The notes under the pieces: model-generated
Database searches by the model: none
Told to the model about the DNA's origin: nothing
Seen by the model: the letters and a program-made list of their open reading frames with translations, nothing else
From: a virus
Reading direction: 5' to 3' (one strand)
IMG/VR virus record: IMGVR_UViG_3300046511_000119
Span: 1 to 41,986 of that record
Length of the DNA stretch: 41,986 nt
Translations under genes and position numbers: made by a program
In this document: positions 2,421 to 28,699 of the stretch, one piece after another
Layout of the letters: each line of letters begins with the position of its first letter
Position numbering within the stretch: position 1 is the stretch's first letter

Positions 2421-2444
2421 TTGGTACTCAACGTGTATTAGTGG
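2421..2444 (+). promoter_or_regulatory. Phage promoter-like motif, copy 1
   Basis: TTGGTACTC at 2421-2429 followed by TGTATTAGTGG at 2434-2444. Matches the motif shared by five other + strand copies, with changes in the GGC and TCA positions. The next gene is 520 bases away, beyond the tRNA half, so it may also transcribe the attP region. Confidence 0.5.
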
Positions 2445-2583
2445 ATGCGTTCAAAACGACACCAAGGAAGAATCAGATGTACAACGACAACGACAACCGG
2501 GAATCACCATAGTCAGATGATGCTGCTGAGCCATGGCAATGTAGGGCAGACAAGGGCAATGGGATTCGTCTGGCAAAACGATT

Positions 2584-2601
2584 TATCCCAACCGTATCCC
2601 A
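2584..2601 (+). repeat. Left tandem arm-type repeat
   Basis: TATCCCA at 2584-2590 and again at 2595-2601, 11 bases start to start. The same pair with the same spacing recurs at 2879-2896; only the two bases after the first heptamer's trailing A (CC against TT) differ across 18 positions. Confidence 0.6.
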
Positions 2602-2676
2602 CCTCGACATCTCCTCGCTCGGTAGCATCCACACCAATAACGCAAGGCATTCATTCTGCGTTAGATAGTACGCGTC

Positions 2677-2715
2677 GGGCCGTTAGCTCAGTTGGCAGAG
2701 CATCTCACTTTTAAT
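2677..2715 (+). pseudogene. tRNA-Lys(TTT) 5' half, likely att core
   Basis: Acceptor 5' strand GGGCCGT, then TAGCTCAGTTGGCAGAGC as D-arm, then the anticodon arm 5' strand and loop CTTTTAA with anticodon TTT. The match to a bacterial tRNA-Lys stops two bases after the loop: the expected TGAGA becomes TGCTA and no T-arm follows. It is therefore not a working tRNA alone. Carrying the 5' rather than the 3' half means a recombined host tRNA would take its 5' half, and its promoter, from the phage. Confidence 0.8.
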
Positions 2716-2878
2716 GCTATTCTGCCACCTCTGCTGAGCAGCGCACCTTCCGCTAGACTTCCATAACGTAGTCAGGTCTGTCCCCAGGAACCGCACCGAT
2801 CGCGGGCTCGGAGACGTGTGCCTGATTGCTGAAGTCTGCGGATTGCCCCGGCACGGATCACCTTAACCCAGAGAGAAG

Positions 2879-2896
2879 TATCCCAATTGTATCCCA
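2879..2896 (+). repeat. Right tandem arm-type repeat
   Basis: TATCCCA at 2879-2885 and 2890-2896, 11 bases start to start, mirroring the left pair. The second heptamer runs into a perfect 7-bp hairpin TCCCAAG / CTTGGGA (2892-2898 with 2904-2910). Confidence 0.6.
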
Positions 2897-2966
2897 AGCA
2901 ATCCTTGGGAAAGACGGCGCCGACGTGTGCCTGCGGGCACCAAACAAAACAAAAGGAGACCACATT

Positions 2967-3164
2967 ATGAAAGCAAAAGTATTCGAACAGATGAAAGCAG
3001 AACGCGACGTACTCAACGCACAGCTCTCTTCCCTCGGCCGTAAGCGTGACGACATCGACACGGAGATCGGGCAGGTCGAAGGCAACCTTGTTGCGATCAA
3101 CACGTTCCTCGTCAATTACGAACCGTCCGAAGTAAAGCGCGGACGTCCCGCCCGTCAGGCATAA
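2967..3164 (+). CDS. Small coiled-coil protein, function unknown
   Basis: 65 residues from the ATG at 2967, chosen for the strong AAAAGGAGA site 8 bases upstream. Residues 1-50 form a continuous charged helix with heptad-like spacing (FEQMKAERDVLNAQLSSL, then RDDIDTEIGQVEGNLVAINTFL), probably a coiled coil. The tail EVKRGRPARQA is basic and resembles an AT-hook-like RGRP motif. It is the first gene of the early block and is followed at 7 bases by the next gene. I do not recognise the family. Confidence 0.7.
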   Translation: MKAKVFEQMKAERDVLNAQLSSLGRKRDDIDTEIGQVEGNLVAINTFLVNYEPSEVKRGRPARQA

Positions 3165-3171
3165 GGACGAC

Positions 3172-3471
3172 ATGCACATCGACATCAAAACCAATGACGA
3201 CGGTGACAAGCCATTCAAGTTCCGGCTTACGACCTTTGATCCGGCCGGGGGAATCAAATCGACATACCAGATCGAGGTCGACGGCTACCAGCTGACGGAC
3301 GCTGGCCTTCTGATGCTCTATCAGCGCGTCAAGGTCAAGGGCTACGCCATGGAACTCACCCAGCTGCAGCTGATCGACGTGTACCCACCGGGCAGCTGGC
3401 TCAGGCTGACGCCGATCAAGGACGAAGTGGCGAATGGAACTCAAAGTGTATTACTGGGCCAGAAACACTAA
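3172..3471 (+). CDS. Hypothetical phage protein
   Basis: 99 residues, ATG preceded by ATAAGGACGAC. Short alternating strands (DIKTNDDGDKPFKFRLTTFD, TYQIEVDGYQLTD) followed by a helix (AGLLMLYQRV) suggest a small alpha/beta domain. No motif is recognised. It sits 7 bases after the coiled-coil gene and 17 bases before the phosphoesterase gene, so it is probably co-transcribed with both. Confidence 0.65.
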   Translation: MHIDIKTNDDGDKPFKFRLTTFDPAGGIKSTYQIEVDGYQLTDAGLLMLYQRVKVKGYAMELTQLQLIDVYPPGSWLRLTPIKDEVANGTQSVLLGQKH

Positions 3472-3488
3472 CGGAGTAAGGATCAGGG

Positions 3489-4556
3489 ATGACAAACAAC
3501 GCAGGAAGCAGGGAGCAGATTGAAGCACTGGTGCTCCAATGGAAATCAAGTAATCCATCACGGGGCACACGGTGGCTTGCGAAGGTCGTAGGGATCAGCC
3601 GCAACCGTGTGACCCGCATCCTGCGAAAGAACGGGCTGCACTCGCCAGACTTCTGGAAATATCACCCAGCGCATGTCGATGAGGATCTGACGAAGATCAG
3701 CACCCAGTATATGGCCGGTGTCGATCCAGCCAGTGGTCCTGACTTCACCGTGGAATACGTCGTGCCTGAGATCAACAGGGAGACGTTCTATAGCTTCGAC
3801 ATCTTTGTCCCGAACCCAGCCAACAGGCCACGGATGCACTGCATCATTCCTGATGCACAGCAGAAGGACGGGGTGCCGAACGATCACCTGCGTTGGGTTG
3901 GCAACTTCATCGAAGAGAAACGGCCGGACGTGGTCATCAACATCGGTGACTTCGCTGACATGCCTTCGCTCTCCTCGTATTCACTGGGGAAGGCCGAAGC
4001 AGAGGGCTCACGGTACGTCTTTGACATTCGGGCAGCGCAAGAAGCAATGGCTGCACTGATGCGTCCGATCCAGCGGGCACAGAATTACAAGCCGCAGCTG
4101 GTGCTGACACTGGGCAACCACGAGAACAGGATCGATCGCGAGGCAGAAGCAAACCCGCGGTTCGAAGGCAAGATCTCAACGGATGACCTGGAGTACGAGA
4201 AGTGGGGCTGGCAGGTCTACCCGTTCCTGGACGTGGTGAAGATTGACGGCTGGGAGTACTCGCACTACTTCACGAGCGGTGCAATGGGCAGGCCGGTGTC
4301 GAGCGCAGCAGCCTTGCTGCGTGAGCGTCAGTGCAGCGCGGTCCAGGGTCACGTGCAGTATACCGACATGGCGATCCACAAGAAGACGGGCAACATCGCG
4401 ATCTTCTGCGGGATCTGCTACCTGCACAACGAGAAATATCTCACCCCGCAGGGGAACTCGACGCGGCGCCAGATCATCATGCTGCACGAAGTACACGACG
4501 GCTATGCCGATCCAATGTTCGTGTCGCTGGCATTTTTGAAATCGAAATATTCATAA
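3489..4556 (+). CDS. Calcineurin-like metallophosphoesterase with N-terminal HTH
   Basis: 355 residues. Residues 22-50 (SRGTRWLAKVVGISRNRVTRIL) form a helix-turn-helix. From about residue 115 a metallophosphoesterase fold follows: Asp122 (PDAQ, replacing the usual DxH), Gly-Asp154 (NIGDFADM), Asn210-His211-Glu (TLGNHENR), His259 (YSHYF) and Gly-His288 (VQGHVQ). These are the metal-binding blocks of the family, with the first His changed to Gln as in many DNA-related phage members. The enzyme would hydrolyse phosphodiester or phosphomonoester bonds using two metals; the substrate is unknown. The DNA-binding domain suggests a nucleic-acid target. Confidence 0.85.
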   Translation: MTNNAGSREQIEALVLQWKSSNPSRGTRWLAKVVGISRNRVTRILRKNGLHSPDFWKYHPAHVDEDLTKISTQYMAGVDPASGPDFTVEYVVPEINRETFYSFDIFVPNPANRPRMHCIIPDAQQKDGVPNDHLRWVGNFIEEKRPDVVINIGDFADMPSLSSYSLGKAEAEGSRYVFDIRAAQEAMAALMRPIQRAQNYKPQLVLTLGNHENRIDREAEANPRFEGKISTDDLEYEKWGWQVYPFLDVVKIDGWEYSHYFTSGAMGRPVSSAAALLRERQCSAVQGHVQYTDMAIHKKTGNIAIFCGICYLHNEKYLTPQGNSTRRQIIMLHEVHDGYADPMFVSLAFLKSKYS

Positions 4557-4570
4557 GGATTGGAGGACCG

Positions 4571-4813
4571 ATGACACCACAGGAGCTGATTAACCAGAAG
4601 GACGAACTCAAGCGGTGGATGGAGCTTGAACGAGAGTTGCCGCTGCTCGACAGGCAGATACAGGATCTGACTAAGAGGCGTGCTCAAGTTTGGGATGAGC
4701 AAAACGCGATCGGCCGTGTCTACGGCACAGAGTCGCGCCTGATTTTTATCGACGATGTTGTTCTTCGGTTGGGCAATAGCTACATCACGGTTGAACGCGT
4801 GGAGAAGCTGTGA
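4571..4813 (+). CDS. Small coiled-coil protein, function unknown
   Basis: 80 residues from the ATG at 4571 behind TTGGAGGACCG. Residues 1-45 are a charged helix (LINQKDELKRWMELERELPLLDRQIQDL, in segments), then a beta-rich end (LIFIDDVVLRLGNSYITVERV). Its stop overlaps the GTG start of the next small gene (GTGA), suggesting translational coupling. Family not recognised. Confidence 0.65.
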   Translation: MTPQELINQKDELKRWMELERELPLLDRQIQDLTKRRAQVWDEQNAIGRVYGTESRLIFIDDVVLRLGNSYITVERVEKL

Positions 4814-4962
4814 CAGTTCACATCTGCGACATGTGCATGAAGGAGATCAAGGGTACGCCAGTCGATGGCGTCAACGACGAGGGCTATGAGTTCTGCTCGG
4901 GTGCTTGCCGGGATGACTGGTACTTCACCACCGAGGGCAGAGACCTAAGCGCCGAGGAATAG
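4810..4962 (+). CDS. Tiny zinc-finger-like protein
   Basis: 50 residues starting with a GTG that overlaps the upstream TGA (GTGA). Sequence begins TVHICDMCMKEIKGTPV and contains CDMC and CSGAC, a Cys4 zinc-ribbon-like pattern, then WYFTTEGRD. It is followed 15 bases later by an AAAGGAGG-led gene. Such Cys4 mini-proteins are common in phage early regions and may bind host proteins or nucleic acid. The role here is unknown. Confidence 0.6.
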   Translation: MTVHICDMCMKEIKGTPVDGVNDEGYEFCSGACRDDWYFTTEGRDLSAEE

Positions 4963-4977
4963 AAAGGAGGAGAGCGA

Positions 4978-5316
4978 ATGGATGGTAAAGAGTTGGTTGA
5001 GGTATTGAAGGCATCGTTGGACTCGCACGTTGAGAACGTAATACGTGTGACTGGTGCGGCACGGATGGGTGACCCTGAGCTGTTGGAGCATACGGTCAAC
5101 GCACAGCGGATGGTCATCAATGGCGCCTATGCTGAGTTCATCGAGCGGACTGGTGTGACGAGTGATGCAGCGGTCTACGGTGCATTCATGGTCTTCATGG
5201 CAGGTTCGATGTATGCCTTCACGCTGGACATACTCAGCAAGCGGTTGCACACACCGGAGCGTGAGCTGACGGGTCCAGAGCGTGAACTGATTCAAGCATT
5301 CATTGAAGTGTTCTGA
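4978..5316 (+). CDS. Helical hypothetical protein
   Basis: 112 residues, ATG behind a strong AGAAAGGAGGAGAGCG site. Predicted nearly all-helical, with a more hydrophobic stretch AVYGAFMVFMAGSMYAFTLDIL at about residues 65-86 that could be a membrane-associated or buried helix. The last residues (RELIQAFIEVF) lead directly into the JAB gene, whose ATG follows the stop by one base. No family recognised. Confidence 0.65.
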   Translation: MDGKELVEVLKASLDSHVENVIRVTGAARMGDPELLEHTVNAQRMVINGAYAEFIERTGVTSDAAVYGAFMVFMAGSMYAFTLDILSKRLHTPERELTGPERELIQAFIEVF

Positions 5317-5317
5317 G

Positions 5318-5830
5318 ATGATCGACGCACACGTCCACCCATTGCTTCGTGTCCCCACGATCTATTTCCCACGGGAACTGGAGCGGGGATTCAAGCGGCG
5401 CGCACGAGTTGCGTTTCCGCTGGAGCATATCGAAGCAATCGCTGGAGACTTCGACGCATGGTCGGGTGGTGTGCGGATCAAAGCCTTGTTGGACATGGCG
5501 CACACGCGTCACAAGGATGGCAGAGGGCTGACGATGCTCGATGCTGATGACAACGACCACAACGAGGTCGAGTTCGTTAAGAAGTGGGCCGAAGAGCTGG
5601 GTCACCGCTGGCTCGGCACCATACACACGCACCCTGGAAATGATACGTGCCACGAGATGTCGCTCACGGATCACAGGCAGGGTTGGGCAGAAGGCGAGCT
5701 GGTATCAGGCATTCTGCATCTTTACAGAGTAGGGAATCCACCCGTCGGTCTTAAACCAGACCGTCGACGTTGGAACTCACGCCTTGCATGGTGGATTCCG
5801 CAACCAGAGATCTTAACAGTTTACACGTAG
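5318..5830 (+). CDS. JAB/MPN (JAMM) metalloprotease-like protein
   Basis: 170 residues from the ATG at 5318; a TTG 15 bases upstream lies inside the preceding gene and is less likely. The JAMM signature is visible: His103-Thr-His105-Pro, then Ser115-x-x-Asp118 (HTHPGNDTCHEMSLTD), after a conserved WLGTI strand. JAMM proteins are zinc isopeptidases or peptidases. In phages they are usually tail-tip components (K-like) or accessory enzymes acting on ubiquitin-like conjugates. This one is in the early block, far from the tail genes, so an intracellular role is more likely. Substrate unknown. Confidence 0.75.
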   Translation: MIDAHVHPLLRVPTIYFPRELERGFKRRARVAFPLEHIEAIAGDFDAWSGGVRIKALLDMAHTRHKDGRGLTMLDADDNDHNEVEFVKKWAEELGHRWLGTIHTHPGNDTCHEMSLTDHRQGWAEGELVSGILHLYRVGNPPVGLKPDRRRWNSRLAWWIPQPEILTVYT

Positions 5831-5881
5831 CCTGACTCCGAAAGGGTCAGATCAAAAATCAACCGGGAGAGGTGTGTCTAT

Positions 5882-6550: not shown

Positions 6551-6552
6551 CC

Positions 6553-7368: not shown

Positions 7369-7746
7369 GTGCCAGCACTCATGGCTGGAAGCCTGACGTT
7401 GCGACCTGAGTCCCAGAGGGGCAGGCCGATCTGGATCACAACAATCCGCGGCGGGATGCACTACCTCTACCTGCAGGACGTCCGCTATTGCCTGAAGAAG
7501 GTGGAGTGGATGCGGCAGATCGCGGAGCAGCACCCTGACAAGCACGAGTATCAGAACGAGAAGCAGCGAGTGAAGCAGCTGAAGCGATTCAGGAGGTTGC
7601 TGCAGTACTACCGCTGGTGGGAAGCGCGCATGGTCCACGAGTACAAGCAGCTCGGGCCGACGGTCACGCCACCGAACTGGAAGGACGTGAAGAAACGTCT
7701 GGGTCTGCAGCTCGAAGATTCGGGGGTGCCTGATGAGTCCAATTAA
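7369..7746 (+). CDS. Basic hypothetical protein
   Basis: 125 residues if the GTG at 7369, abutting the upstream stop, is used; an ATG at 7381 is the alternative, and neither has a strong ribosome site. Rich in Arg, Lys and aromatic residues (RRLLQYYRWWEARMVHEYKQ), with a long central helix. It overlaps the next gene by 14 bases. A nucleic-acid-binding role is possible but no family is recognised. Confidence 0.55.
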   Translation: MPALMAGSLTLRPESQRGRPIWITTIRGGMHYLYLQDVRYCLKKVEWMRQIAEQHPDKHEYQNEKQRVKQLKRFRRLLQYYRWWEARMVHEYKQLGPTVTPPNWKDVKKRLGLQLEDSGVPDESN

Positions 7747-8029
7747 ACGGAGGCTACGGCCAGAGTTTATGGGATGGAACCGGGTGTTCAAAACAAAAGT
7801 GCGGCTGTTCAATGAAGAGCTGCTTGAGCCCATGCCGCCTGATCAGTACAAGTATCTGCTGGAAGATGGCTTTATGGTGTTCATCCGTGCGGGCATGACG
7901 TCTGGTCGGATCGGATTCATCTGGACGGAGTCTGCACGTGAGTCGACGTATGCCGTCTGTGAGATCGTGCCGATCGTGGCGAAGAACTCTGACTTCAAGG
8001 CCATGGAAGATGAGCAGCGAGATCCGTAG
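7733..8029 (+). CDS. Hypothetical phage protein
   Basis: 98 residues; ATG within the end of the preceding gene. A short basic start (KRRLRPEF) is followed by alternating strands (EDGFMVFIRAGMTSGRIGFIW, in segments). The stop at 8027-8029 is one base before copy 2 of the promoter-like motif, so this is the last gene of the first early transcription unit. Function unknown. Confidence 0.65.
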   Translation: MSPIKRRLRPEFMGWNRVFKTKVRLFNEELLEPMPPDQYKYLLEDGFMVFIRAGMTSGRIGFIWTESARESTYAVCEIVPIVAKNSDFKAMEDEQRDP

Positions 8030-8030
8030 T

Positions 8031-8054
8031 TTGGCACTCGAAATGTATTAGTCA
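8031..8054 (+). promoter_or_regulatory. Phage promoter-like motif, copy 2
   Basis: TTGGCACTC at 8031-8039, AATGTATTAGTCA at 8042-8054. Followed by CGTCGTTCG, similar to the bases after copies 1, 3 and 5. An intrinsic terminator lies 35 bases downstream, before the next start codon. Confidence 0.65.
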
Positions 8055-8089
8055 CGTCGTTCGTTTGCATATCTGTAATCTCCTTTCGA

Positions 8090-8127
8090 CGGGGCAGCGA
8101 GCAATACGCTGCCCCGATTTTTTATTT
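8090..8127 (+). terminator. Strong intrinsic terminator between motif copy 2 and the next gene
   Basis: Perfect 10-bp stem CGGGGCAGCG (8090-8099) with CGCTGCCCCG (8107-8116), 7-base loop, then ATTTTTTATTT. The gene at 8141 starts 13 bases later, so this either ends the upstream operon or acts as an attenuator for transcripts from copy 2. Confidence 0.9.
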
Positions 8128-8140
8128 CTGGAGGGTTCAC

Positions 8141-8413
8141 ATGACCGAGGTCATTCTGCCAGCTGGTGAAGCCAGTGTCTACTTCATGAGAGACCTGACA
8201 ACGAAAGGTGACGAAGAGGGGATGAGCGAAGTGCGCGAGCTGAGACGGCGCCGAACGGACGCTCTCGCCGCGACTGCTGCGAAGGCCAGGAAAAAAGCGG
8301 AACTGGCATCAAGGCCGAAGAAAGCAAGGAAGCGAAAGAAATTAACCGGCCCGCTTGAAGAGGTACGGATACCGATTTATGGCGAAGATACAGCTCCCAA
8401 AGAATCTGAGTGA
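8141..8413 (+). CDS. Lys/Arg-rich small protein
   Basis: 90 residues, ATG behind CTGGAGGGTTCAC. The middle (residues 35-72) is extremely basic and Ala-rich (RRRRTDALAATAAKARKK, KKARKRKK), typical of a nucleic-acid-binding tail. The ends are acidic. Its 3' end overlaps the start of the exonuclease gene by 35 bases. Possibly a DNA-binding partner of that enzyme, inferred from overlap only. Confidence 0.6.
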   Translation: MTEVILPAGEASVYFMRDLTTKGDEEGMSEVRELRRRRTDALAATAAKARKKAELASRPKKARKRKKLTGPLEEVRIPIYGEDTAPKESE

Positions 8414-9158
8414 CGTCCAGGCGTCAGGCGTAACACTGCCGGTCGAGATGGCTGAGTGTTGCTGCTTCGTCTGGACACCTGAGTCGCTCGACAAAGACAC
8501 GAAGGTGAGGTTCTGCGAAGAGCATCACCGTTACTGGCGCGACTCCATCGAGCTGGTCAGCGTGACGCGCATGCTGCGCTGGACGTGGCCCATCAAACCG
8601 AATGCCGATGAGCCTGTGGACCAGCGGGTGATCGACAACGCGAGAGATCGCGGGGTCATAGTCGACCGGATGTTCTCAGCCTATGTGATCGGGAAGCTCG
8701 ATCCTGAGAACCTGCCGCCCGTGCGGGAGGATGCGATCGACCTGTTCAACAAGCTGCGCCGCTGGTGGGACGCACAAGGGTTCACGGAGAAGAACACCAG
8801 GAGCCAGCTGCTCCTGGCTGACGGCACGTTGGCCGGTCAGTGCGATCTCTTCAACCGTGATCAGCGGCCGACGATCCTCGACGTCAAGTGCGTGTACGAC
8901 ATCGACCTGACATATCAGCTGCAGGTTGGTGGGTACGGCGATCTCGCATCGAAGATGGAAGCGTATGGAGAGATCGAGCGGCTGGTGCTGCTGCACGCGA
9001 CGAAGCGGTTCAAAGAGGTGCGGGTGATCGAGGTCGACGCGAAGCTGGCCATGGAGGATTGGAGATCGTTGCGCCGCATGTACGAAGTAGTCGGCCGACG
9101 GACGGGACTGTGGGGAGGGACTGAAAAGGAAATGAAAGGAGGGTTACGCTGTGGATAG
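8379..9158 (+). CDS. PD-(D/E)XK exonuclease (RecB/Cas4-like)
   Basis: 260 residues from the ATG at 8379; an upstream TTG at 8355 is a weaker choice. The nuclease core shows GQCD (Asp156), ILDVK (Asp168-x-Lys170) and a following YQLQVGGY motif typical of the RecB-nuclease family. Residues 65-110 contain a helical R-x-x-R-G segment often seen N-terminal in phage members. The N-terminal Cys-rich part (ECCCF, RFCEEHH) could hold zinc. It probably resects DNA ends for recombination with the Sak4-like ATPase encoded downstream. Confidence 0.8.
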   Translation: MAKIQLPKNLSDVQASGVTLPVEMAECCCFVWTPESLDKDTKVRFCEEHHRYWRDSIELVSVTRMLRWTWPIKPNADEPVDQRVIDNARDRGVIVDRMFSAYVIGKLDPENLPPVREDAIDLFNKLRRWWDAQGFTEKNTRSQLLLADGTLAGQCDLFNRDQRPTILDVKCVYDIDLTYQLQVGGYGDLASKMEAYGEIERLVLLHATKRFKEVRVIEVDAKLAMEDWRSLRRMYEVVGRRTGLWGGTEKEMKGGLRCG

Positions 9159-9477
9159 GGAACTAACGATGGACACGTTAGACAAGGAACACAAACACTT
9201 TCAAAAGTGGCTGTCGTTTCACCGCGAGAATCCCCATGTGTATGGGGAGATCGTGGCACTGGCCCGCGAAGCCATTCGGTCGGGGTACAGCCGGTGGGGC
9301 ATGCAAGGCATCTTTGAAATTCGACGTTGGGAGAATCGATACAAAAATCCAGTGGACGTCGATGGCTACAAGATGAATGACCACTATCGATCTTTTTACT
9401 CTCGTTGTGTCATGGAGAATGAGCCAGACCTCGTTGAGTTCTTCGAAATTCGTGAGAGCAGGAGTATGGCACTCTAA
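9151..9477 (+). CDS. Conserved phage protein (phage hypothetical with W-x3-Ky-G-x-K pattern)
   Basis: 108 residues. GTG at 9151 is preferred because AAAGGAGGG lies 8 bases upstream; ATG at 9169 is the alternative. The pattern FHRENPHVYGEIVALAREAI, then IRRWENRY, GYKMNDHYRSFYSRCVME and FFEIR matches a widespread but uncharacterised small phage protein family known to me by sequence look. All helical; no enzyme motif. Its stop lies inside copy 3 of the promoter-like motif. Confidence 0.7.
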   Translation: MDRELTMDTLDKEHKHFQKWLSFHRENPHVYGEIVALAREAIRSGYSRWGMQGIFEIRRWENRYKNPVDVDGYKMNDHYRSFYSRCVMENEPDLVEFFEIRESRSMAL

Positions 9478-9489
9478 GTGTATTAGTCA
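9466..9489 (+). promoter_or_regulatory. Phage promoter-like motif, copy 3 (ahead of the sigma gene)
   Basis: ATGGCACTC at 9466-9474, AGTGTATTAGTCA at 9477-9489, then AGGCGTTCG. The motif overlaps the stop codon of the upstream gene. It is the nearest promoter-like element to the operon that includes the sigma factor, so self-activation is possible. Confidence 0.65.
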
Positions 9490-9542
9490 AGGCGTTCGAC
9501 AGTAACAACGTAAGTACAACCGAAAGGATCAAAGAAGGAAAC

Positions 9543-9815
9543 ATGGCAAGAAAATCAGCAGCAGCAACGGCGATCGTCTACGGAGAGTTCTCTCTGTTCT
9601 TCACAGGGGCGAAGCTCAAGACGGGTGCCGACTACAGCAAGCAGATTGAGGATGCCGCACAAGGCATGATCGAACTGCAGGCATTGATCGGCCGCATGCA
9701 GGCCGCACAGGGCCGCACGAAAGCGGTAGCAGGAGCGAAGAGCACTCGGACTCGGAAAGGTGTGAACACTCCGAGTGCCATCCCAACAGAAGCAGCGTCA
9801 GAAGCAGCGGCCTAA
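9543..9815 (+). CDS. Small hypothetical protein upstream of the sigma factor
   Basis: 90 residues, ATG behind AAGAAGGAAAC. N-terminal basic stretch (MARKSAAATA), a central helical part (YSKQIEDAAQGMIELQALIGRM) and a Lys/Thr/Ala-rich tail. The 3' end overlaps the sigma gene start by 41 bases, suggesting coupling. Position just before a sigma factor invites the thought of a regulator, but nothing in the sequence proves it. Confidence 0.6.
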   Translation: MARKSAAATAIVYGEFSLFFTGAKLKTGADYSKQIEDAAQGMIELQALIGRMQAAQGRTKAVAGAKSTRTRKGVNTPSAIPTEAASEAAA

Positions 9816-10431
9816 TCGCCGCAAGCTAACGCTTGAGGATTTCGAGTCCGCAGTCAGTAAGTACTACCCCCGTATCGTTCTTTACTGCGGCAAGAGCACG
9901 AACTGGCATGACGAACATGCGGATCTGGCTCAGCAAACGTTTCTGAAAGCGAGACGGGCGTTCCATAAGTTCGAAGGACGCAGCTCGCTGTATACGTGGT
10001 TCCACACAATCGCTCAGAACCTCGTGATCGACTGGCGACGAAAGCAAAAGCAAGTCGCTACGGTCCCATTGGACAAACACGACTGGGGAGGTAACGGTGC
10101 AACGCTTGATGGTTGGCCCACCGAATACGGTGAGTCTGCAATCGCGCACTCCGACCTCATCCAGCTGAGCGAAGCAAGCTCGTGCCACGCCATCGGTGAT
10201 CCGCTGCGCGCTGTCTTCTCTCGCGAAATACGCGAGATCGTTGAGGGTGCGTTGGATGAGATGACCGACAAGGAGCGTCAAGCATACGAGCTTCAAGTGG
10301 ACGAAGGCAAGAACACGCGGGAGGTCGCAGAGCTGCTGGGTGTAGCCGAACAGACCGTGAGGAATCGGTTGCATCTGGCAAGGAAGCGCATCCGGCGCAA
10401 GTTGGTCGAAGCCAATGTGCTGAGTGGCTGA
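9775..10431 (+). CDS. Phage-encoded sigma-70 family factor, ECF-like
   Basis: 218 residues with GTG start at 9775; the exact start is uncertain because of the overlap. Region sigma2 is seen at about residues 20-85 (DEHADLAQQTFLKARRAFHKF, then LYTWFHTIAQNLVIDWRRK), and sigma4 at about 160-210 (MTDKERQAYEL, TREVAELLGVAEQTVRNRLHLARKRI), with no sigma3 between. This is the two-domain architecture of ECF factors. It would redirect host RNA polymerase to phage promoters. Promoter-like motifs occur directly before its operon (9466) and 25 bases after its stop (10457), making it a prime candidate to read them. Confidence 0.88.
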   Translation: MPSQQKQRQKQRPNRRKLTLEDFESAVSKYYPRIVLYCGKSTNWHDEHADLAQQTFLKARRAFHKFEGRSSLYTWFHTIAQNLVIDWRRKQKQVATVPLDKHDWGGNGATLDGWPTEYGESAIAHSDLIQLSEASSCHAIGDPLRAVFSREIREIVEGALDEMTDKERQAYELQVDEGKNTREVAELLGVAEQTVRNRLHLARKRIRRKLVEANVLSG

Positions 10432-10456: not shown

Positions 10457-10480
10457 CTGGCACTCAGATTGTATTAGTCA
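10457..10480 (+). promoter_or_regulatory. Phage promoter-like motif, copy 4
   Basis: CTGGCACTC at 10457-10465, ATTGTATTAGTCA at 10468-10480. Only 17 bases separate its end from the GTG of the Sak4-like gene, with AAAGGA in between. Transcription must therefore start within a few bases of the motif end if the gene is to keep its ribosome site. Confidence 0.65.
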
Positions 10481-10497: not shown

Positions 10498-11409
10498 GTG
10501 AAACTATCTGCAGTCAAGAAACGTTACCGAAAGATTTTCCTGTGCGGGCCAGCCGGTAACGGTAAGACCGTCGGCGGTGCGAGCTTTCCCGGCTCGACGT
10601 ATTGGTTCGAGTTCGATCCCGAGGGGCTGGAGTCGGTCCAGACGTTTTATGGTTCGAAGGGCCAGGATGCCAGCCGCATCGAGGCGATCGAGTTCGATTC
10701 ATACATCGATCACAACCCGGACAAGCCTGTTGCCTACAAGGCGTTCGAGAAGAAGGTCACCGACTGGCAGGCTTACGTTGTAAAGAACGGTCGGATGCCG
10801 TTCGACAACATTGTCCTGGACTCGCTGACGTCGGTTCAGGTCGCACTGGGTCATTACATCAAGTTCAACACGGCGAGTCAGAACCGTGTGTTCGGTGGAG
10901 TGAGCAACCTCCAGGACTACCTGATCCTCAACCACTTCCTGAAGGAGTTGTTCCCTGAGTTCCTGGCACTGCCGTGCAACATCATCGTCACGGCGCACAT
11001 GAGGAAGGTCCAGGACGACACGGGCGCCATCACGTTCGATCCGCTCGTCCAGGGTAAGGATCTGCCCGTGATGATCCCAGTGTGGTTCGGTGAATCGTAT
11101 CACTGCCACACCGTTGAGGGCACGGGAGAGAAGAAAGGGCAAGTCGAGTTCAAGTGGGGATTCAAACCGGATCGTAAGATCGCGTGGGTGAAGTCGAGGG
11201 CACTGCCGTCGACGCTGGCGAGCCCGATCCCTGCTGGCTTTGCGTCGATCAAACCTCACGTTCAGTGGAAGCTCGCAGAGGAGAACCTCCTGGTTCCCGA
11301 AGACATGGCGAGCACGCAAGCAGCCCTGAAGGCAGCAGCCGCAGGCATTGGCACGGCCACAACCGTGGACGATGAAGCAGCCACGCGCCTGAAGAACGCT
11401 ACTTCGTAA
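10498..11409 (+). CDS. Sak4-like RecA-fold ATPase (AAA_24), recombination
   Basis: 303 residues, GTG start after AAAGGATCATAAA. Walker A GPAGNGKT at 17-24, Walker B NIVLDS with Asp108, and a later conserved THAHM-like sensor region (VTAHMRK). Length and order fit the Sak4/AAA_24 single-strand annealing or recombination ATPases of phages. It probably works with the upstream PD-(D/E)XK nuclease and the DUF669-like protein just downstream, a combination common in phage recombination modules. The C-terminal 50 residues are Ala-rich and probably disordered. Confidence 0.85.
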   Translation: MKLSAVKKRYRKIFLCGPAGNGKTVGGASFPGSTYWFEFDPEGLESVQTFYGSKGQDASRIEAIEFDSYIDHNPDKPVAYKAFEKKVTDWQAYVVKNGRMPFDNIVLDSLTSVQVALGHYIKFNTASQNRVFGGVSNLQDYLILNHFLKELFPEFLALPCNIIVTAHMRKVQDDTGAITFDPLVQGKDLPVMIPVWFGESYHCHTVEGTGEKKGQVEFKWGFKPDRKIAWVKSRALPSTLASPIPAGFASIKPHVQWKLAEENLLVPEDMASTQAALKAAAAGIGTATTVDDEAATRLKNATS

Positions 11410-11417
11410 ACAAAAGT

Positions 11418-11441
11418 TTGGCACGCGAAGTGTATTAGTCA
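11418..11441 (+). promoter_or_regulatory. Phage promoter-like motif, copy 5
   Basis: TTGGCACGC at 11418-11426, AGTGTATTAGTCA at 11429-11441, then ATGCAGTTCGTTTG, similar to the bases after copy 2. The next gene starts 86 bases further on. Confidence 0.65.
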
Positions 11442-11527
11442 ATGCAGTTCGTTTGACGATAAACCCAGCCCGATGGGAAACGACAAGGATGATCGGGTAA
11501 ACAAACAACAACCAAGAAAGGTCAACA

Positions 11528-11917
11528 GTGAGAATACAAGTACCCAAGTCCCTTGATGAAGTTAAGTCCGGCTTTGATCCGCTTCCCGAAGGCACGTATC
11601 GCGTTCGTGCGACGGAAGCCAAAGTCAAAACCAGCGGCAAAGGCAACCCCTACGTCGCGTTCACGTTCCAGGTGGTCGACAACGAGACAGCGAGCTTCAA
11701 CAATCGCAAGCTGTTCCACAACTCGACGATCACCGAGGAAACGCTCGGGTTCCTCAAGCAGGTTCTCGAAGCTCTCGGCACCCCGTGGGATGCGGAAGGA
11801 TTCGATACCGACGACGTCATCGGCAACGAGTGCATTGTTGGCGTGAAGATCCAGCCACGTTCCGATCAGCCGGAAGTGCTGCAGAACACGATCAAGACGT
11901 TCGCCAAAGCTGCCTAG
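11528..11917 (+). CDS. DUF669-like protein, likely single-strand DNA-binding
   Basis: 129 residues; GTG start behind AAGAAAGGTCAACA. Beta-rich (GTYRVRATEAKVKTSGKGNPYVAFTFQVVD, in segments) and ending in helix. It shows the F-x-P-L-P-E-G-x-Y pattern and the TGFLKQVLEALG-type helix typical of the DUF669 family, which is usually encoded beside recombination ATPases and thought to be a phage SSB-like OB-fold protein. Its position after the Sak4-like gene supports this. Confidence 0.75.
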   Translation: MRIQVPKSLDEVKSGFDPLPEGTYRVRATEAKVKTSGKGNPYVAFTFQVVDNETASFNNRKLFHNSTITEETLGFLKQVLEALGTPWDAEGFDTDDVIGNECIVGVKIQPRSDQPEVLQNTIKTFAKAA

Positions 11918-13043: not shown

Positions 13044-13138
13044 GACCGATCGACGTGTTCATGCTCCTTGCCGCCGTCATGCTGATCTACTGGGGGATAC
13101 GTTCCCCCAATGATCGTGATGACGACTGGCTTGGTTGA
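13040..13138 (+). CDS. 32-residue membrane mini-protein
   Basis: Begins in an ATGA overlap with the previous gene and encodes a single hydrophobic segment (VFMLLAAVMLIYWGI) followed by an acidic tail (NDRDDDWLG). Overlap-coupled start and membrane helix support it being real. The coding DNA contains a 7-bp hairpin TGGGGGA / TCCCCCA (13091-13109), which may also belong to the structured region that follows. Confidence 0.5.
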   Translation: MRPIDVFMLLAAVMLIYWGIRSPNDRDDDWLG

Positions 13139-13521
13139 TAGGCGAGGGTTCGACTCCCTCCTGTGACGGTCCTTCACGGACGCCCTGCTGGTAGCGGGCT
13201 GGGTGGTTGGCTTCCACCATGGACACATTATGCGGGGTGTGAAGCGCAGATGAAGGCGCAATGACGTTGCCTGTGCGGGCTGGTTAGAGCCTACATCGTC
13301 AAAGAGCTGGGAGAACATAGTCTAATCCTCAAGGTCCGCAGGAGCGGCCTATTCTCTCGGAAAGCACAGTCGGAGGGGCTGCCCCTCTCCCCACCCCGCT
13401 CCAAGTTATGGGATTGCCGGGTCGCACCCGGTCAGCGAGTCTCTTTGCGGAGTCCTGCACTGGTAACGTTCGGTGCAGGCAGCTTGAGCGAGACTCGCTG
13501 TCCCCCCAACCTTCGGAACGA
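13139..13521 (+). ncRNA. Gene-free, highly structured stretch B; candidate large structured RNA
   Basis: About 380 bases without a gene. It holds a tRNA T-arm-like element (13144-13160) and hairpins GTCC/GGAC (13169-13181), GCCC-GC/GCGGGC (13182-13199), GGTGG/CCACC (13202-13218), GAGGGG/CCCCTC (13373-13387) and CCGGGT/ACCCGG (13417-13431). An 11-bp helix CAGCGAGTCTC/GAGACTCGCTG (13433-13443 with 13490-13500) encloses a 7-bp CCTGCAC/GTGCAGG hairpin (13454-13479). Nested long helices of this kind indicate a folded RNA. I do not recognise RNase P, tmRNA, a group I intron or a known riboswitch. Confidence 0.5.
13144..13160 (+). other. tRNA T-arm-like element
   Basis: GAGGG TTCGACT CCCTC: a 5-bp stem with the canonical TTCGANT T-loop. 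No matching acceptor strand or D-arm is found at proper distance on either side, so it is not a complete tRNA. Confidence 0.45.
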
Positions 13522-13545
13522 TTGGCCCTCGAATTGTATTAGTCA
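13522..13545 (+). promoter_or_regulatory. Phage promoter-like motif, copy 6 (ahead of DNA polymerase)
   Basis: TTGGCCCTC at 13522-13530, ATTGTATTAGTCA at 13533-13545. It lies between the structured stretch and the DNA polymerase start at 13590. Confidence 0.65.
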
Positions 13546-13589: not shown

Positions 13590-16271
13590 ATGGATGCGAA
13601 GCAACTGTTCAACAAGCTGGCCGGTGATCTGCCCACGCATTATGGGTTGTCACTGGCCAGCAGGCTCACCCCGCCGAATGGTCCCACCACTGCGCGCATC
13701 GTTGTCATCTCCGACTATCCATCGCACCAGGACGAGAAAGGCCGAGGCTCACTGACGAGCTGGGCTGGCAAAGAGTTCGACAAGATGCTGCGGAACGTCG
13801 GCATCGATCGAGCCGAAGTCTACGTCACCGATCTGGTGAAGCTCAAGCCGCTGAAGAACGACATTTCGAAGGCCGAGATCCCATGGACTGACCCACTGTG
13901 GGCGGACATGCTGAAGCGCGAGCTGGAGGAGATCAAGCCGAACGTCGTGATCGTCCTGGGATCGGTGAGACGGAAGAACATCGCTCTGAATGCACTGTGC
14001 AGCCGTCCAGGCAGCGACATGTCGACGATGAAGTACCGCGGTTCCGTGCTGGAGAGCACACTGGTCCCCGGATTGAAAGTCGTCCCGACGATCCACCCAT
14101 CGGCAATCATGAACCAGTGGGCATGGCGCCAGCTGGTTGTCGCTGACCTGGAGAAGGCGAAGAGCGAGAGTGGGTTCAAAGAGATCCGCCGTAAGAACCG
14201 AAGGTTCTTCACCCGGCCGACGTTCAACCAAGCTATCCAGTGGATTGATGACATCATCGCCAGCCGCAAGGAATACTGCGTTGACATCGAGACGGGCAAG
14301 AAGTTTCACTTCATCTCGTGCATCGGACTGGCGAAGTCGGACACCGAGACGATGTGCATCCCGTTCATCGCGAACAAGGGATCGTACTGGAGCGAGCGGG
14401 AGGAGTACGAGATCTGGAAGCGGCTTGCCGTGTTGTTGGAGAGCGACATCCCGACGATCTATCAGAACGGTCTGTTCGATATGTTCTGGCTGACACTCCA
14501 TGGGATCAAAGTGAACGCGCACAACGTGTGGGACACGATGCTGATGTTTCACCTCCTCTACGCCGAACTCCCGAAGGGTCTGGACACACTGTGCTCGATC
14601 TATACGGATCTGCCGTATTACAAGGACGACGTCAAGGCACACAACTGGAACGTCTCGGACGACGCACTGTGGGACTACAACTGCCGTGACACAACCGGCA
14701 CTTGGGAGTGCAAGCAGAGGCTGTTGGAGGAGATGAAGGAGTTCCAGACTCCCAAGATCTATCTGCAGTCGCTCCGCAAGTGGAACGTCCTCGACCTGTA
14801 CACTCGAACGATCCAACCGCTGGTTGCTGACATCCTGAAGACGGAGATCCGTGGAGTCAAGATCGATACGATCAAGCGTGCAGCCGCAGCGGTCGAGCTG
14901 GGTGTGAAGATCGTCGAGGCGCAGGCACGCCTGGATGCCGTGGCCGGTCACGCACTGAACGTGCAGTCACCGAAGCAGCTCAAGGAGTTCTTCTACAAGG
15001 AGTGCGGAATCGAGGAGCAGGTCAACCGCAAGACCGGCAAGGTGAGCACGAGCGAAGAGATCCTGCTGAAGATCCAGGACAAGCTGACGTTCGAACAGCG
15101 CACAAGGGAAGAGGCTGCGAGCACCCGCAAGCGTCAGCCATCGGCCGCTCAGCTTGCTAAGTGGGATCTGGAGGAGCGGGTGCTGCAGGCGATCCCGGCC
15201 GTGCTCGACATCCGAGGCTACAAGAAGATCAAGAAGACATACCTGGAGGCACAACTTGACCCTGATCAACGAATACGCTGCTCTTACAACCCGGCAGGTA
15301 CTGATTTTGGACGACTCGCATCCAGTAAGAGTCCTCTCGGTTCCGGTGGAAACCTTCAGAACATCCCCCCTGGAATCACACGAGACATTTTTATCGCAGA
15401 TAACTGCGAGAGAGCGCCGGGACTTCATTGTTATGAAGATCTCCCACCAGTGCAGAAGGTCGACAAAAAGGGTGAGACGTATGAAGTATCGCAGTGGTCG
15501 ATAGACCCTCTCCACCCACCCGACATCTGCGTCTTTGACACATGCACGATGTGGCTTGCTGGTGACTTGTCGCAGGCTGAAGCGCGCATCGTGGCATACA
15601 TCGCGCCCGAGACGAACATGATCGCGGCCTTCGAGTCGGGTCAGGACATCCACATCTACAACGCATCGCTGCTCTTCGACATCCCCTACGAGAGCATGCA
15701 CGGTGAGTCACCAGAGCGGTTCATCGCGAAGCATCTGGTCCACGCGTGCAACTACAAGGTGGGCAAGGGCAGGTTCGCAGACACGGTGAACATCAAAGCG
15801 AAGATGCACGGTGTCGATGTGTTCTTCACGCCAGAGAAGGCAGGGACCGTGCAGCAGCTGTACTACACGAAGTTCTCAGGCATCCCTGCGTTCCACAAGT
15901 TCGTCGAGGACGAGATCAAACGCAGCCACATGCTCTGGAATCTCATGGGCCGTCCACACATCTTCTTCGACCGTGCCGACGACAACGTCTTCCGCACTGG
16001 CTACGCCTGCATACCGCAGGGTACGGTGGCCGACATGGTGAACATCGGCTATGTGCGAACCGCGAAGTGGTATCCAGTGGTGCTGCAAGTGCATGACTCG
16101 ATCACGACGCAGATCAAGCCGCGGGAGGTGGAGCAGGCAATGAGGGTGATGGAGGATTCGTTCAGGATACCGCTCAACGCCCACGGCAAAGAGTTTTATA
16201 TCCCGATGGACTTCAAGATCGGGCCGTCGTGGGAGAACGCGAAGAAAGTCAAGCTGCCGAGAGCAGCATAG
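13590..16271 (+). CDS. Family A DNA polymerase with N-terminal uracil-DNA-glycosylase-like domain
   Basis: 893 residues; ATG with AAGGAAG upstream. Residues 30-190 resemble family-4 UDG (VLGSVRRKNIAL, then motif HPSA with His169). The usual Cys ligands of the iron-sulfur cluster and the GExPG acid are not evident (ISDYPSHQD, DLVKLKP). A 3'-5' exonuclease domain begins with Asp232-x-Glu234 (VDIETG). The polymerase domain has motif A GDLSQAEARIVAY (Asp659), a motif B of the R-x3-K type (RFIAKHLVHACNYKVG) and motif C VHDS (Asp836) with Ser837 where Glu is usual. It is the replicative polymerase; the glycosylase part may detect uracil or be structural. A related fusion exists in SPO1-like phages. 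Confidence 0.9.
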   Translation: MDAKQLFNKLAGDLPTHYGLSLASRLTPPNGPTTARIVVISDYPSHQDEKGRGSLTSWAGKEFDKMLRNVGIDRAEVYVTDLVKLKPLKNDISKAEIPWTDPLWADMLKRELEEIKPNVVIVLGSVRRKNIALNALCSRPGSDMSTMKYRGSVLESTLVPGLKVVPTIHPSAIMNQWAWRQLVVADLEKAKSESGFKEIRRKNRRFFTRPTFNQAIQWIDDIIASRKEYCVDIETGKKFHFISCIGLAKSDTETMCIPFIANKGSYWSEREEYEIWKRLAVLLESDIPTIYQNGLFDMFWLTLHGIKVNAHNVWDTMLMFHLLYAELPKGLDTLCSIYTDLPYYKDDVKAHNWNVSDDALWDYNCRDTTGTWECKQRLLEEMKEFQTPKIYLQSLRKWNVLDLYTRTIQPLVADILKTEIRGVKIDTIKRAAAAVELGVKIVEAQARLDAVAGHALNVQSPKQLKEFFYKECGIEEQVNRKTGKVSTSEEILLKIQDKLTFEQRTREEAASTRKRQPSAAQLAKWDLEERVLQAIPAVLDIRGYKKIKKTYLEAQLDPDQRIRCSYNPAGTDFGRLASSKSPLGSGGNLQNIPPGITRDIFIADNCERAPGLHCYEDLPPVQKVDKKGETYEVSQWSIDPLHPPDICVFDTCTMWLAGDLSQAEARIVAYIAPETNMIAAFESGQDIHIYNASLLFDIPYESMHGESPERFIAKHLVHACNYKVGKGRFADTVNIKAKMHGVDVFFTPEKAGTVQQLYYTKFSGIPAFHKFVEDEIKRSHMLWNLMGRPHIFFDRADDNVFRTGYACIPQGTVADMVNIGYVRTAKWYPVVLQVHDSITTQIKPREVEQAMRVMEDSFRIPLNAHGKEFYIPMDFKIGPSWENAKKVKLPRAA

Positions 16272-20840: not shown

Positions 20841-20883
20841 ACCGCCCACCAATGCACTTGGGTTTCCACTCCCCGAAGGGGGG

Positions 20884-25269: not shown

Positions 25270-25286
25270 GTTTCCAATCACAGCCA

Positions 25287-27287
25287 TTAGAAGTTATCCA
25301 GCATGGAGAGGAAGTCCCACTTGCTGGCCGTTGCGTTGTACTCGAAAGCCAGATACATGGTCTTCCCGAGTGTCGTTGCCGTAGGCAGTGCGAGGTCGGA
25401 GCTGGCTCGATAGATTGCGTTCCAGGCCAGCGTCCGGGAAGTACCGTTGTCTGTGACTCGAATCAGCAGCCGATGACCTTGTGCTGGAGAACCAGAAGGC
25501 GCCGCGAACGTGGCGTTGACCGCCAGTGCGGTAACAGTGAACTCGCTGTCCTTTGCATCCGTCGGTGTCGGCGTTGAGCTGGAAGCGACAGTCGTCGATG
25601 CTACGGTTGGCGGGGTAACCTGCACTCCATTGAGGAAGAGAGCGGTGAGGTTGACTCCTCCAGTACCTGGATCTCCACCGGCCGGTGAGCCGAGGATGAT
25701 GCTGGGTGCCGTGATGTGGCCCTCGATCCCAAGGTTGCCGAGACGGTCCAGGATCATGGCCAATGTCTGAGCGGTATTCGCCGGATTCGTGTAGAACTCG
25801 ATGCGGGAGGGCGGACGCTGCCCAGAAGTAAATGTGCCATCGACTACGAAATTGATCTGGGCACCACCAAAGTAACCACCACCGGAATATGCGTTGTTGG
25901 CGATGATCCCTGTTTTATCGTTGTTGGCTGAGTTCGTGCGAGACGCTTGACTCCCATTCGCTTGCTGGAACTGGAGGACGCTTCCGGTGCTGCCGATCGA
26001 GTCAAGAACGGCAAACGTGATGCTGTTACTGCCAACATAGAACTGACCAGTAGAATTGGTGGTGTCAAACATCGATACGGTGTCGCCAAAACGCACTGCC
26101 CCAGCACCCGTATAGAGCGCATAGTTCGTGACGCTACCAATGTTCTGGTCATCGATCTTGATCCCGTAGTTCCTCGTCAAAGCACCGGCCGACTTGCTGT
26201 TCGAGTTGATGTACAACCCATAAGCATTCGTGGTCGTGCCACCACCAATCACCACTCCTTCGGAGCGGAGAACAGACACGTCAGTGGCCGTACCGCCGTT
26301 GATGTTCGTGACGCCTGCCGCAGCTGATACGTTGGTAGCTGTGCCCGTGGTCAGGATGGCGTTCGCACCCAGCCCCTCCAACCTCGTAACTGTCCCGGCC
26401 GTCTGCGTTGCGAGCCCATAAGTGCCGACGAGTGTTGTCGTCGTGCCCGCACCACCTTGCGTGGAGAAACCGTAGAAGGCAACGCCAGAGGAGCGAGTGC
26501 CCGAAGGGTTGTTCGACGTGAAGGCCGAGTTTGCACCACGCAGCGTGGTCGTGTCAGTGATGGTCGTAGCGACGTCGAAGGGGTAGCTGGGAGACACCCG
26601 AATGCCGAGAGCACCAATGAACTTGACGGGCGCGCCGGGGGTATTAATGAGATCGATGGCATCACCACCCGTACTCGTCCAGAGCATCAAGTCAGTGGAT
26701 GAAACAGGGCGATAAACTGCTCCCGAGTCAACTCCAGCAGACTGCAGGTAAAAGGTGCTCTGGTTCCCGAATGGGGAGTTTACCCTCACGCCTGCTGCAG
26801 AACTGACACCAGTCAGGATGAGTGAGCCATTCGAATGCTGCATCGTTTGGGTAAACGTGCCAGTGCCGTCTGTCGCGTTGGTCAATCCCCATTGGAGCGG
26901 GATGTTGGAAGCCGTAGAGCTATAAACTTGCCGAAGGGTTGCATCGCTACCGTAAGAGAAATATGCCCAGTTCGATGGGTCACGATAGATTGTGAGGCGC
27001 GATTGAGTGAATGGCGTATTTACTGGGGCAGTTTGAATACGAAACTCACCGGCAGTGGTGGCTGAGAACACCGTGGCCGAGGTCGAGAAGTTCCCCGCCA
27101 CAGCGGTATTCCGCTCCAGAGCGAAGACATCACCATTCAGATGGAAGCGCCACAGCCCAGCGGGCAGCGTCTGGTCTGTCTCCCGCATCTGGAGCTTCAG
27201 GTCGGTGCCGCTGAACTGAGCCCCTGCGGGCTGCACTATGCTGAGCAGCAGCGACAAGCTGAGAATAAATGTCAGAAGTCTTTTCAT
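25287..27287 (-). CDS. Secreted tail-fibre-like protein
   Basis: 666 residues, ATG behind AAGGAAAC. Signal peptide MKRLLTFILSLSLLLSIVQP followed by AGAQ. The body is Gly/Thr/Ser-rich beta repeats (GVRVNSPFGN, LGIRVSPSYPFDV, NYGIKIDDQNIGSVTNYALYTG in segments) of the kind seen in trimeric fibres. The C-terminus (FTVTALAVNATFAAPSGSP, SKWDFLSMLDNF) resembles phage tail fibre tips. Its stop overlaps the next gene's alternative ATG. As with the neighbour, the signal peptide suggests export rather than normal virion assembly in the cytoplasm. Confidence 0.75.
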   Translation of the reverse strand: MKRLLTFILSLSLLLSIVQPAGAQFSGTDLKLQMRETDQTLPAGLWRFHLNGDVFALERNTAVAGNFSTSATVFSATTAGEFRIQTAPVNTPFTQSRLTIYRDPSNWAYFSYGSDATLRQVYSSTASNIPLQWGLTNATDGTGTFTQTMQHSNGSLILTGVSSAAGVRVNSPFGNQSTFYLQSAGVDSGAVYRPVSSTDLMLWTSTGGDAIDLINTPGAPVKFIGALGIRVSPSYPFDVATTITDTTTLRGANSAFTSNNPSGTRSSGVAFYGFSTQGGAGTTTTLVGTYGLATQTAGTVTRLEGLGANAILTTGTATNVSAAAGVTNINGGTATDVSVLRSEGVVIGGGTTTNAYGLYINSNSKSAGALTRNYGIKIDDQNIGSVTNYALYTGAGAVRFGDTVSMFDTTNSTGQFYVGSNSITFAVLDSIGSTGSVLQFQQANGSQASRTNSANNDKTGIIANNAYSGGGYFGGAQINFVVDGTFTSGQRPPSRIEFYTNPANTAQTLAMILDRLGNLGIEGHITAPSIILGSPAGGDPGTGGVNLTALFLNGVQVTPPTVASTTVASSSTPTPTDAKDSEFTVTALAVNATFAAPSGSPAQGHRLLIRVTDNGTSRTLAWNAIYRASSDLALPTATTLGKTMYLAFEYNATASKWDFLSMLDNF

Positions 27288-27293
27288 GTTTCC

Positions 27294-27863
27294 TTATGAC
27301 GATGTGCGGTAGTCGCAGCGGATCGTGTGGCCGGTCTGCGGTGGAATCGTGAATGTAATGGTCGCGCCAGACATCGTGTAGTCGACGCCAATGAGCTGGC
27401 GCACACCACTCAAGTAAATCTTCACGGTGCCAGCGAGCGGTGTTGATGCCAGCGTGAATGTCAGATTCGAATTGTCGATCGATCCCGACGGAGTCTCATC
27501 GTCGACGAGACGGAGGAGCGACAGCGGAGCAGACCCGATGATCAGGAGATCTCGAAGCAAGCGTGGACTCGGTGACGGGGGGAGGGTGAACGCACCGAGA
27601 CTCTGCTGAAGGGCTACGCCACCGATCGTGCAGTTGACTGAGACATTGTAAGTACGCCCGTTCGGCGTGCCGTCTTCGGTGCTTTCCAGAACGATCGAGA
27701 ACGTACCGTCTGCGGGATTGATCGAGCAGCTTTCCGACTTGGGCAGGGTGAAGTCACCGCCAGCATCGATATACCAATCACTCAGCGTGAAGTTGACGGT
27801 GCCAGACGACGGCTTTGCATTCTGAGCGTCCTCGATGACTCCGGTGATCGTGATCTGAGCCAT
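27294..27863 (-). CDS. Beta-rich tail-associated protein
   Basis: 189 residues. Two beta domains: residues 1-115 (ITITGVIEDAQNAKPSSGTV, then IVLESTEDGTPNGRTYNVSV) and a short C-terminal domain (TLASTPLAGTVKIYLSGVRQ, YTMSGATITFTIPP) like those capping phage fibres. No signal peptide. It sits between the fibre-like gene and a small membrane protein and is joined to the latter by TAATG. Probably a baseplate or fibre-linked structural protein. Confidence 0.6.
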   Translation of the reverse strand: MAQITITGVIEDAQNAKPSSGTVNFTLSDWYIDAGGDFTLPKSESCSINPADGTFSIVLESTEDGTPNGRTYNVSVNCTIGGVALQQSLGAFTLPPSPSPRLLRDLLIIGSAPLSLLRLVDDETPSGSIDNSNLTFTLASTPLAGTVKIYLSGVRQLIGVDYTMSGATITFTIPPQTGHTIRCDYRTSS

Positions 27864-28150
27864 TAGTTTCCACCAAACAGTCGGTGGCCTAATGCCTGAC
27901 TGATCTTCGCTTGCTCGATCTTCAGTTCTTCGACTTCGGCCGTGAGCTTGTCGAGCTTCTCTTCGTTTCGTTGCAGGGTGTCGATCAGGAGTTTGCGGTC
28001 TTTGAGGTAGGGGGATTCCTCCTCGATCATCTGTTTGACTTCAATACGCGTAGGTACGGAGAACCCGAAAGGTACAACGTTCCAGCTGACTGTCAGCATG
28101 ACGCCGATCACAGCCGCGACAATTACCGGATCATTCCACTTGAACGTCAT
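27863..28150 (-). CDS. Small membrane protein with coiled coil
   Basis: 95 residues; ATG behind GGAGGACGGTCTCGCCT. N-terminal membrane helix (VIVAAVIGVMLTVSWNVVPF), then a charged coiled coil (LIDTLQRNEEKLDKLTAEVE, ELKIEQAKISQ). Holin- or spanin-like layout within the late unit. Function unproven. Confidence 0.6.
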   Translation of the reverse strand: MTFKWNDPVIVAAVIGVMLTVSWNVVPFGFSVPTRIEVKQMIEEESPYLKDRKLLIDTLQRNEEKLDKLTAEVEELKIEQAKISQALGHRLFGGN

Positions 28151-28208
28151 AGGCGAGACCGTCCTCCTGGGTAATTGGACCGTCTCGGGGGGTGGGAATT
28201 TTGTGGGT

Positions 28209-28670
28209 TTAGGCTGTTGGCTGGTCGGTTGAGTGCTGCAGCTTGGCCCTCAGATCAACCTCGCTGCCGTGCCAGTGCTTCTCGGCATCCTCGAACTTGT
28301 CGAGCAGCCGGGTGTATGTTTTCCGGCGAGGTTGCGGAGGCTGCACACCGTCTAATAGGCTGTTGATGAGCACGAAGCCAGCATCCTCTACAAAGATGTA
28401 CCCACGGAGGTTGCCCACCAGCTCACGGCGCGTCGGGACACGCCACCATTCGAAGTTCGGCGGTGCGATGACCTTGGTCCCGTGTGGGCAGATGATGTGA
28501 TCGGGAGTGGCGATTGCCTCTGAGATGCTCTCAAGCTGCAGCTCAACTGCGTCGGCCGTGCGTGCTTCAGCACGCGTCTTTGTTTTCACAAACGCCCATG
28601 CTTCCCAGAGGAACTCGAAGACATCACGATCTTCCTGGTTGAGCGGATTAAACTTGATGAGGTATCCCAT
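28209..28670 (-). CDS. Hypothetical protein
   Basis: 153 residues. Helical start (DRDVFEFLWEAWAFVKTKTRAEARTADAVE, in segments), a central beta part (HIICPHGTKVIAPPNFEWWRV, split) and a helical end (LLDKFEDAEKHWHGSEVDLRAKL). Its start codon lies 7 bases from the - strand copy of the promoter-like motif. No family recognised; could be a fibre chaperone from its place near fibre genes. Confidence 0.6.
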   Translation of the reverse strand: MGYLIKFNPLNQEDRDVFEFLWEAWAFVKTKTRAEARTADAVELQLESISEAIATPDHIICPHGTKVIAPPNFEWWRVPTRRELVGNLRGYIFVEDAGFVLINSLLDGVQPPQPRRKTYTRLLDKFEDAEKHWHGSEVDLRAKLQHSTDQPTA

Positions 28671-28677
28671 AGCCCTC

Positions 28678-28699
28678 AGTCATACACTTCGAGTTCCAA
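28678..28699 (-). promoter_or_regulatory. Diverged - strand copy of the phage promoter-like motif
   Basis: On the - strand TTGGAACTCGAAGTGTAT is followed by GACT, so the first 18 bases fit the + strand consensus and two bases (TA) are missing from the end. It fills the gap between the hub gene and the gene at 28670. It is the only copy found on the late strand. Confidence 0.45.

Follow-up and report, generated by a model that had tools for sequence, protein, structure and literature searches.

A repeated element of about 30 bp ahead of gene groups in an uncultured phage: a probable phage-specific promoter with an encoded ECF-type sigma factor as candidate reader

What is the short sequence that recurs at gene-group boundaries in this phage, known from environmental DNA only, and, if it is a promoter, which factor reads it? 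The window, meaning the whole stretch of DNA analysed (41,986 nt, IMG/VR record IMGVR_UViG_3300046511_000119), had received a first-pass annotation that listed seven copies of a promoter-like motif, six on the plus strand and a diverged one on the minus strand.

We found TTGGCACTC-N4-TGTATTAGTCA at all six annotated plus-strand sites (2421, 8031, 9466, 10457, 11418 and 13522), where none was expected and none occurred in 100 dinucleotide shuffles; these copies have 0-3 mismatches to TTGGCACTCN4TGTATTAGTCA. A matrix built from the six was used to scan the window. The scan recovered the diverged copy at 28699 on the minus strand (TTGGAACTCGAAGTGTATGACTGA), which is real, and an additional one at 3434 on the plus strand (ATGGAACTCAAAGTGTATTACTGG) that had been missed, the next score in the window being far lower. 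The seven listed copies thus stand, and the count becomes eight clear copies plus a weak and uncertain ninth at 37858-37881 (minus strand, ATGGCCCCTTTCGTGCATTACTGA), in which TGCA replaces TGTA.

The only close relative found is IMGVR_UViG_3300014166_000003 (62,340 bases), which has the same gene order and a DNA polymerase about 70% identical. The same scan gave four clear copies there, ahead of the single-stranded DNA-binding protein (SSB) gene, the ribonucleotide reductase gene and two small genes, and only chance matches in the controls. The skeleton TGG-N9-TGTA-NN-A-N-T occurs 8 times in the window against 0.4 expected and 4 times in the relative against 0.5 expected; lengthening or shortening the spacer by one base leaves no occurrence in either. 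T2 G3 G4, T14 G15 T16 A17, A20 and T22 are invariant in all twelve clear copies; the version in the relative is TGTAAKASTCA, as against mostly TGTATTAGTCA in the window. Two look-alikes, at 16077-16100 in the window and 5852-5875 in the relative, were rejected as a coding coincidence, since both fall in the conserved QVHDSI stretch of the DNA polymerase.

The copies share a mean identity of 76-81% over two blocks (positions 1-9 and 14-24). The mean falls to about 40-57% at positions -3 to 0, 10-13 and 25-28, and to 25-28%, that is background, outside positions -3 to 28. This sets the length of the element at about 30 bp (28-32 by varying estimate) with sharp edges, and its consensus is AGTTTGGCACTCNAANTGTATTAGTCANGC. 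High identity in the blocks with background values just outside points to a selected site, and not to a recent duplication or the remnant of duplicated segments. Neither a strong palindrome in the element nor an RNA fold common to the copies was found.

A same-strand gene start lies 6-87 nt downstream in seven of the eight window copies, as compared with 4.6% of random positions. The exception is the first copy (2421-2444, plus strand, TTGGTACTCAACGTGTATTAGTGG), with the next clear gene 523 nt away (start at 2967). On one side of this copy is an integrase gene (888-2255) and on the other the 5' half of a tRNA-Lys(TTT)-like sequence (2677-2716, plus strand), a possible attP; if so, integration would split the promoter at 2421 from the genes downstream. 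The copy at 3434-3457 (plus strand) sits in the final codons of gene 3172-3471, and the phosphoesterase gene 3489-4556 starts 32 nt on. Four copies overlap the stop codon of the gene before them or follow it directly. Among them, that at 8031-8054 (plus strand) directly follows the stop of gene 7733-8029 and is 87 nt from gene 8141, at the head of the 8141/exonuclease genes, while that at 9466-9489 (plus strand) spans the stop of gene 9151-9477 and is 54 nt from gene 9543, the sigma factor gene coming next. The copy at 11418-11441 (plus strand), at the stop of the gene before it, is upstream of the SSB gene 11528-11917, and the one at 28676-28699 (minus strand), where the tail-fibre gene 28703-33484 stops, ends 6 nt ahead of the ATG of the late-region gene 28209-28670. 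The other two are intergenic: 10457-10480 (plus strand) is 18 nt from the GTG start of the Sak4-like gene 10498-11409, ending 5 nt ahead of a Shine-Dalgarno-like AAGGAT, and 13522-13545 (plus strand) is 45 nt from the DNA polymerase A gene 13590-16271. The annotated placement between genes or across a stop codon, ahead of a gene group, thus holds for most copies; the copy at 3434 lies in coding sequence, and that at 2421, with about 0.5 kb lacking a clear gene, is the weakest case. No clear copy was found deep within a gene.

Some features near the copies were recorded in their own right. Between the copy at 8031 and gene 8141 there is a strong terminator-like hairpin (8090-8116, plus strand; 10 pairs, then ATTTTTTATT), about 35-40 nt past the copy; a promoter placed before it would give a short RNA or attenuation. 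The pairing of such a small RNA with Shine-Dalgarno sites did not exceed that of shuffled sequence. In the leaders between motif and SSB gene, 11442-11527 in the window and L013:511-746 in the relative, stem-loops can form in both phages (CCCGAT...ATCGGG; GCCGC...GCGGC and GCCTGC...GCAGGC), and RNA regulation of SSB is possible. The DNA polymerase is of family A with a fused N-terminal domain of the uracil-DNA-glycosylase superfamily. ARAGORN called a 95-base tRNA-Trp at 13075-13169 (plus strand), a length that suggests an odd or false call.

The relative's SSB copy (L013:487-510) occupies the slot orthologous to that of the window copy at 11418. The weak TGCA form also occurs in both phages, on the minus strand (about 37881-37858 in the window and about 20672-20649 in the relative), after the tail-tube gene and overlapping a hairpin, in the window its right arm. 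On the relative contig 36423, the sequence TTTGGAATCCAACGTGTATAGTCA (L025:4423-4400, minus strand), which has one base less between TGTA and GTC and lies inside the terminase small subunit gene, may be a decayed or alternative copy. Searches of viral contigs with the polymerase (alone and aligned), tail-tube, capsid, SSB and sigma factor queries gave no third close relative, and the polymerase search of genome contigs gave just a 24% match. Distant polymerase relatives taken as controls (Desulfofustis, Microcystis, Manatee Spring and Caulobacter phages) have no motif. Other motif matches in the collection were set aside as chance, those in L007-L009 being in contigs with no homologous genes and those in L038-L042 inside ORFs.

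The boundaries are sharp, the copies all point towards genes, the element is conserved in a diverged relative (in the orthologous SSB slot and at the head of the ribonucleotide reductase gene), and clear copies deep inside genes are lacking. Together these features argue that the element is probably a phage-specific promoter, as the first-pass annotation had proposed from the sequence. The short leaders of the copies at 10457 and 28699 would place the transcription start at about positions 24-31 of the motif, if both genes are expressed from those copies; for the copy at 10457 the start would be at or before about position 28-30, if the leader carries its Shine-Dalgarno sequence. With such a start the whole element would be the core promoter.

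As regards the reader, the annotation had pointed to a resemblance of GGCAC/GGAAC to an ECF -35 and had named no sigma factor gene. The motif cluster itself includes a gene (9775-10431, plus strand) for an ECF-type RNA polymerase sigma factor of 218 aa that has both region 2 and region 4. The protein matches PF04542 (6.9e-13), PF08281 (3.7e-13) and phrog_1740 (2.4e-25) and, in the PDB, ECF chains of the sigma-H/sigma-E type (1.2e-10); a structure model made with no alignment (pLDDT 44) was too poor to use. The gene lies between the copies at 9466 and 10457, its operon behind the former and the latter just after it. Among the 90 ORFs of the two phages, whose contigs are both incomplete, neither an RNA polymerase family nor a sigma54-activator family was recognised, which leaves this sigma factor as the only encoded promoter-specificity factor recognised. 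No sigma factor gene was found in the 62 kb of the relative, but that contig starts inside the Sak4-like gene, the neighbour of the sigma factor gene in the window, and hence just past the expected site.

Promoters of group 4 ECF sigma factors have, for example, GGAACTT with GTC/TCAAA, and the element is like them in GGCAC/GGAAC and GTC; the candidate reader is likewise an ECF-type sigma factor. However, the distance from GGCAC to GTC is 13 nt in each of the twelve clear copies, some 4 bp less than in a standard ECF promoter, with a conserved TGTATTA in between, whereas the -35 and -10 of ECF promoters are about 16-18 apart (PMC12153292; PMC3616915). Taking GTTTGG (positions -1 to 4) as an alternative -35 gives 16 nt to GTC and leaves the conserved centre of the element unexplained. 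The sigma70 arrangement TTGACA-N16-18-TATAAT does not fit either: the mean match to TTGACA is 2.42 against a background of 2.40, and no TATAAT follows TTGGCA, so that either partner hexamer is no better than background.

Use of host sigma54 (-24/-12) promoters by the phage would account for the TGGCAC half and for the exact GG-N10-G spacing, present as GG-N10-GT in all twelve clear copies, and a start about 12 nt past T16 would suit the short leader of the copy at 10457. The annotated likeness in spacing (G3 G4 to G15) is thus correct, and so is its reservation: compared with the consensus tGGcacg/tTGCt (PMC4641369), the -12 GC is GT in every one of these copies, and the element has an additional conserved ATTAGTCA, with A20, T22 and the trailing TCA conserved and not needed by sigma54. 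Neither phage genome has an exact match to the sigma54 consensus, and no enhancer-binding activator family was found in the phage ORFs. We regard host sigma54 as very improbable. A contiguous and rigid element of about 28 bp with sharp edges also looks like the promoter of a single-subunit (T7-like) or other dedicated phage RNA polymerase; no such polymerase family was recognised in the 90 ORFs of the two incomplete contigs, and we hold this, provisionally, to be very improbable. The sigma54, sigma70 and T7-type readings all fit worse than a reading by the phage sigma factor.

Two further explanations are each improbable in our view, and less so than these. The host housekeeping holoenzyme could be recruited by a phage activator bound to the TTTGGCACTC half, by a logic like that of MotA/AsiA or Ogr, with TGTATTAGT as a degenerate extended -10, which it resembles; a binding site for an activator would account for both the strong upstream half and the invariable spacing, and in both phages many ORFs belong to no known family. 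On the other hand, a suitably spaced -35 hexamer is lacking, TTGGCA is not followed by a TATAAT, and in the window phage a T stands at the position of the -11 A when TG14-15 is read as the extended -10; the spacing of T4 MotA also differs from that of the element. The copies could also be something other than promoters: asymmetric operators or 'stoperators' bound by a repressor of the phage, or a signal acting at the RNA level in intercistronic mRNA. L5-like mycobacteriophages are known to have asymmetric operators repeated between their genes, the integrase gene means that the phage may be temperate, and the copy at 8031 is just upstream of a terminator hairpin. Against this, no repressor gene was recognised in the ORFs of both phages, neither a strong palindrome nor a shared RNA fold was found, and replication and ribonucleotide reductase genes are also headed by copies; the distance from motif to next start, 6 to over 200 nt in the two phages, speaks against a translational signal.

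The best single mechanism, which we favour at somewhat better than even, is that the element is a phage-specific core promoter read through the encoded ECF-type sigma factor 9775-10431; we infer both a transcription start at the element and its reading by this factor. The element would direct the host core RNA polymerase to most early and replication gene groups (phosphoesterase, exonuclease, sigma factor, Sak4-like, SSB and DNA polymerase) and to at least one late-region gene (28209-28670). The sigma factor most likely recognises it and, as its own operon starts with a copy, would act in positive autoregulation, so that the phage would redirect the host transcription machinery to its own genes. 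A point against the sigma factor reading is the strong hairpin within about 40 nt of the copy at 8031, odd for a promoter of gene 8141. A more specific version, possible but unlikely, is that the ECF-type phage sigma factor, a member of the sigma70 family, possibly helped by a co-factor from the phage, recognises a compact promoter with a conserved spacer that copies the sigma54 -24/-12 layout by means of GG-N10-GT. To our knowledge such sigma54-like geometry is not known for ECF sigma factors.

Phages phiEco32 and 7-11 have sigma factors of their own that read middle and late promoters (PMC8948821). The gp36-dependent middle and late promoters of phiEco32 have tAATGTAtA (PMC8948821), and the present case is like it in the alternative phage sigma factor, the few near-identical elements ahead of gene groups and the TGTAT core; however, phiEco32 has a single short element and a sigma factor with no region 4, whereas here the element is bipartite, of about 30 bp, and the sigma factor has region 4. 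In phage 7-11, two-element late promoters read by gp47 (GTAAtg-16-aCTA; PMC8948821) likewise head gene groups, but the sequence is another one and the 16 nt spacer is outside the consensus, while here conserved sequence runs throughout. The class, a phage sigma factor with its promoter set, is already known; the sequence of the element and its compact layout with a conserved spacer were not found among the known ones.

If confirmed, the element and its sigma factor would make up a complete small regulon in a group of uncultured phages, with one sigma factor and some eight promoters. They would also offer a testable case of a phage sigma factor that reads a promoter outside the ECF spacing, as well as an orthogonal sigma-promoter pair for laboratory use.
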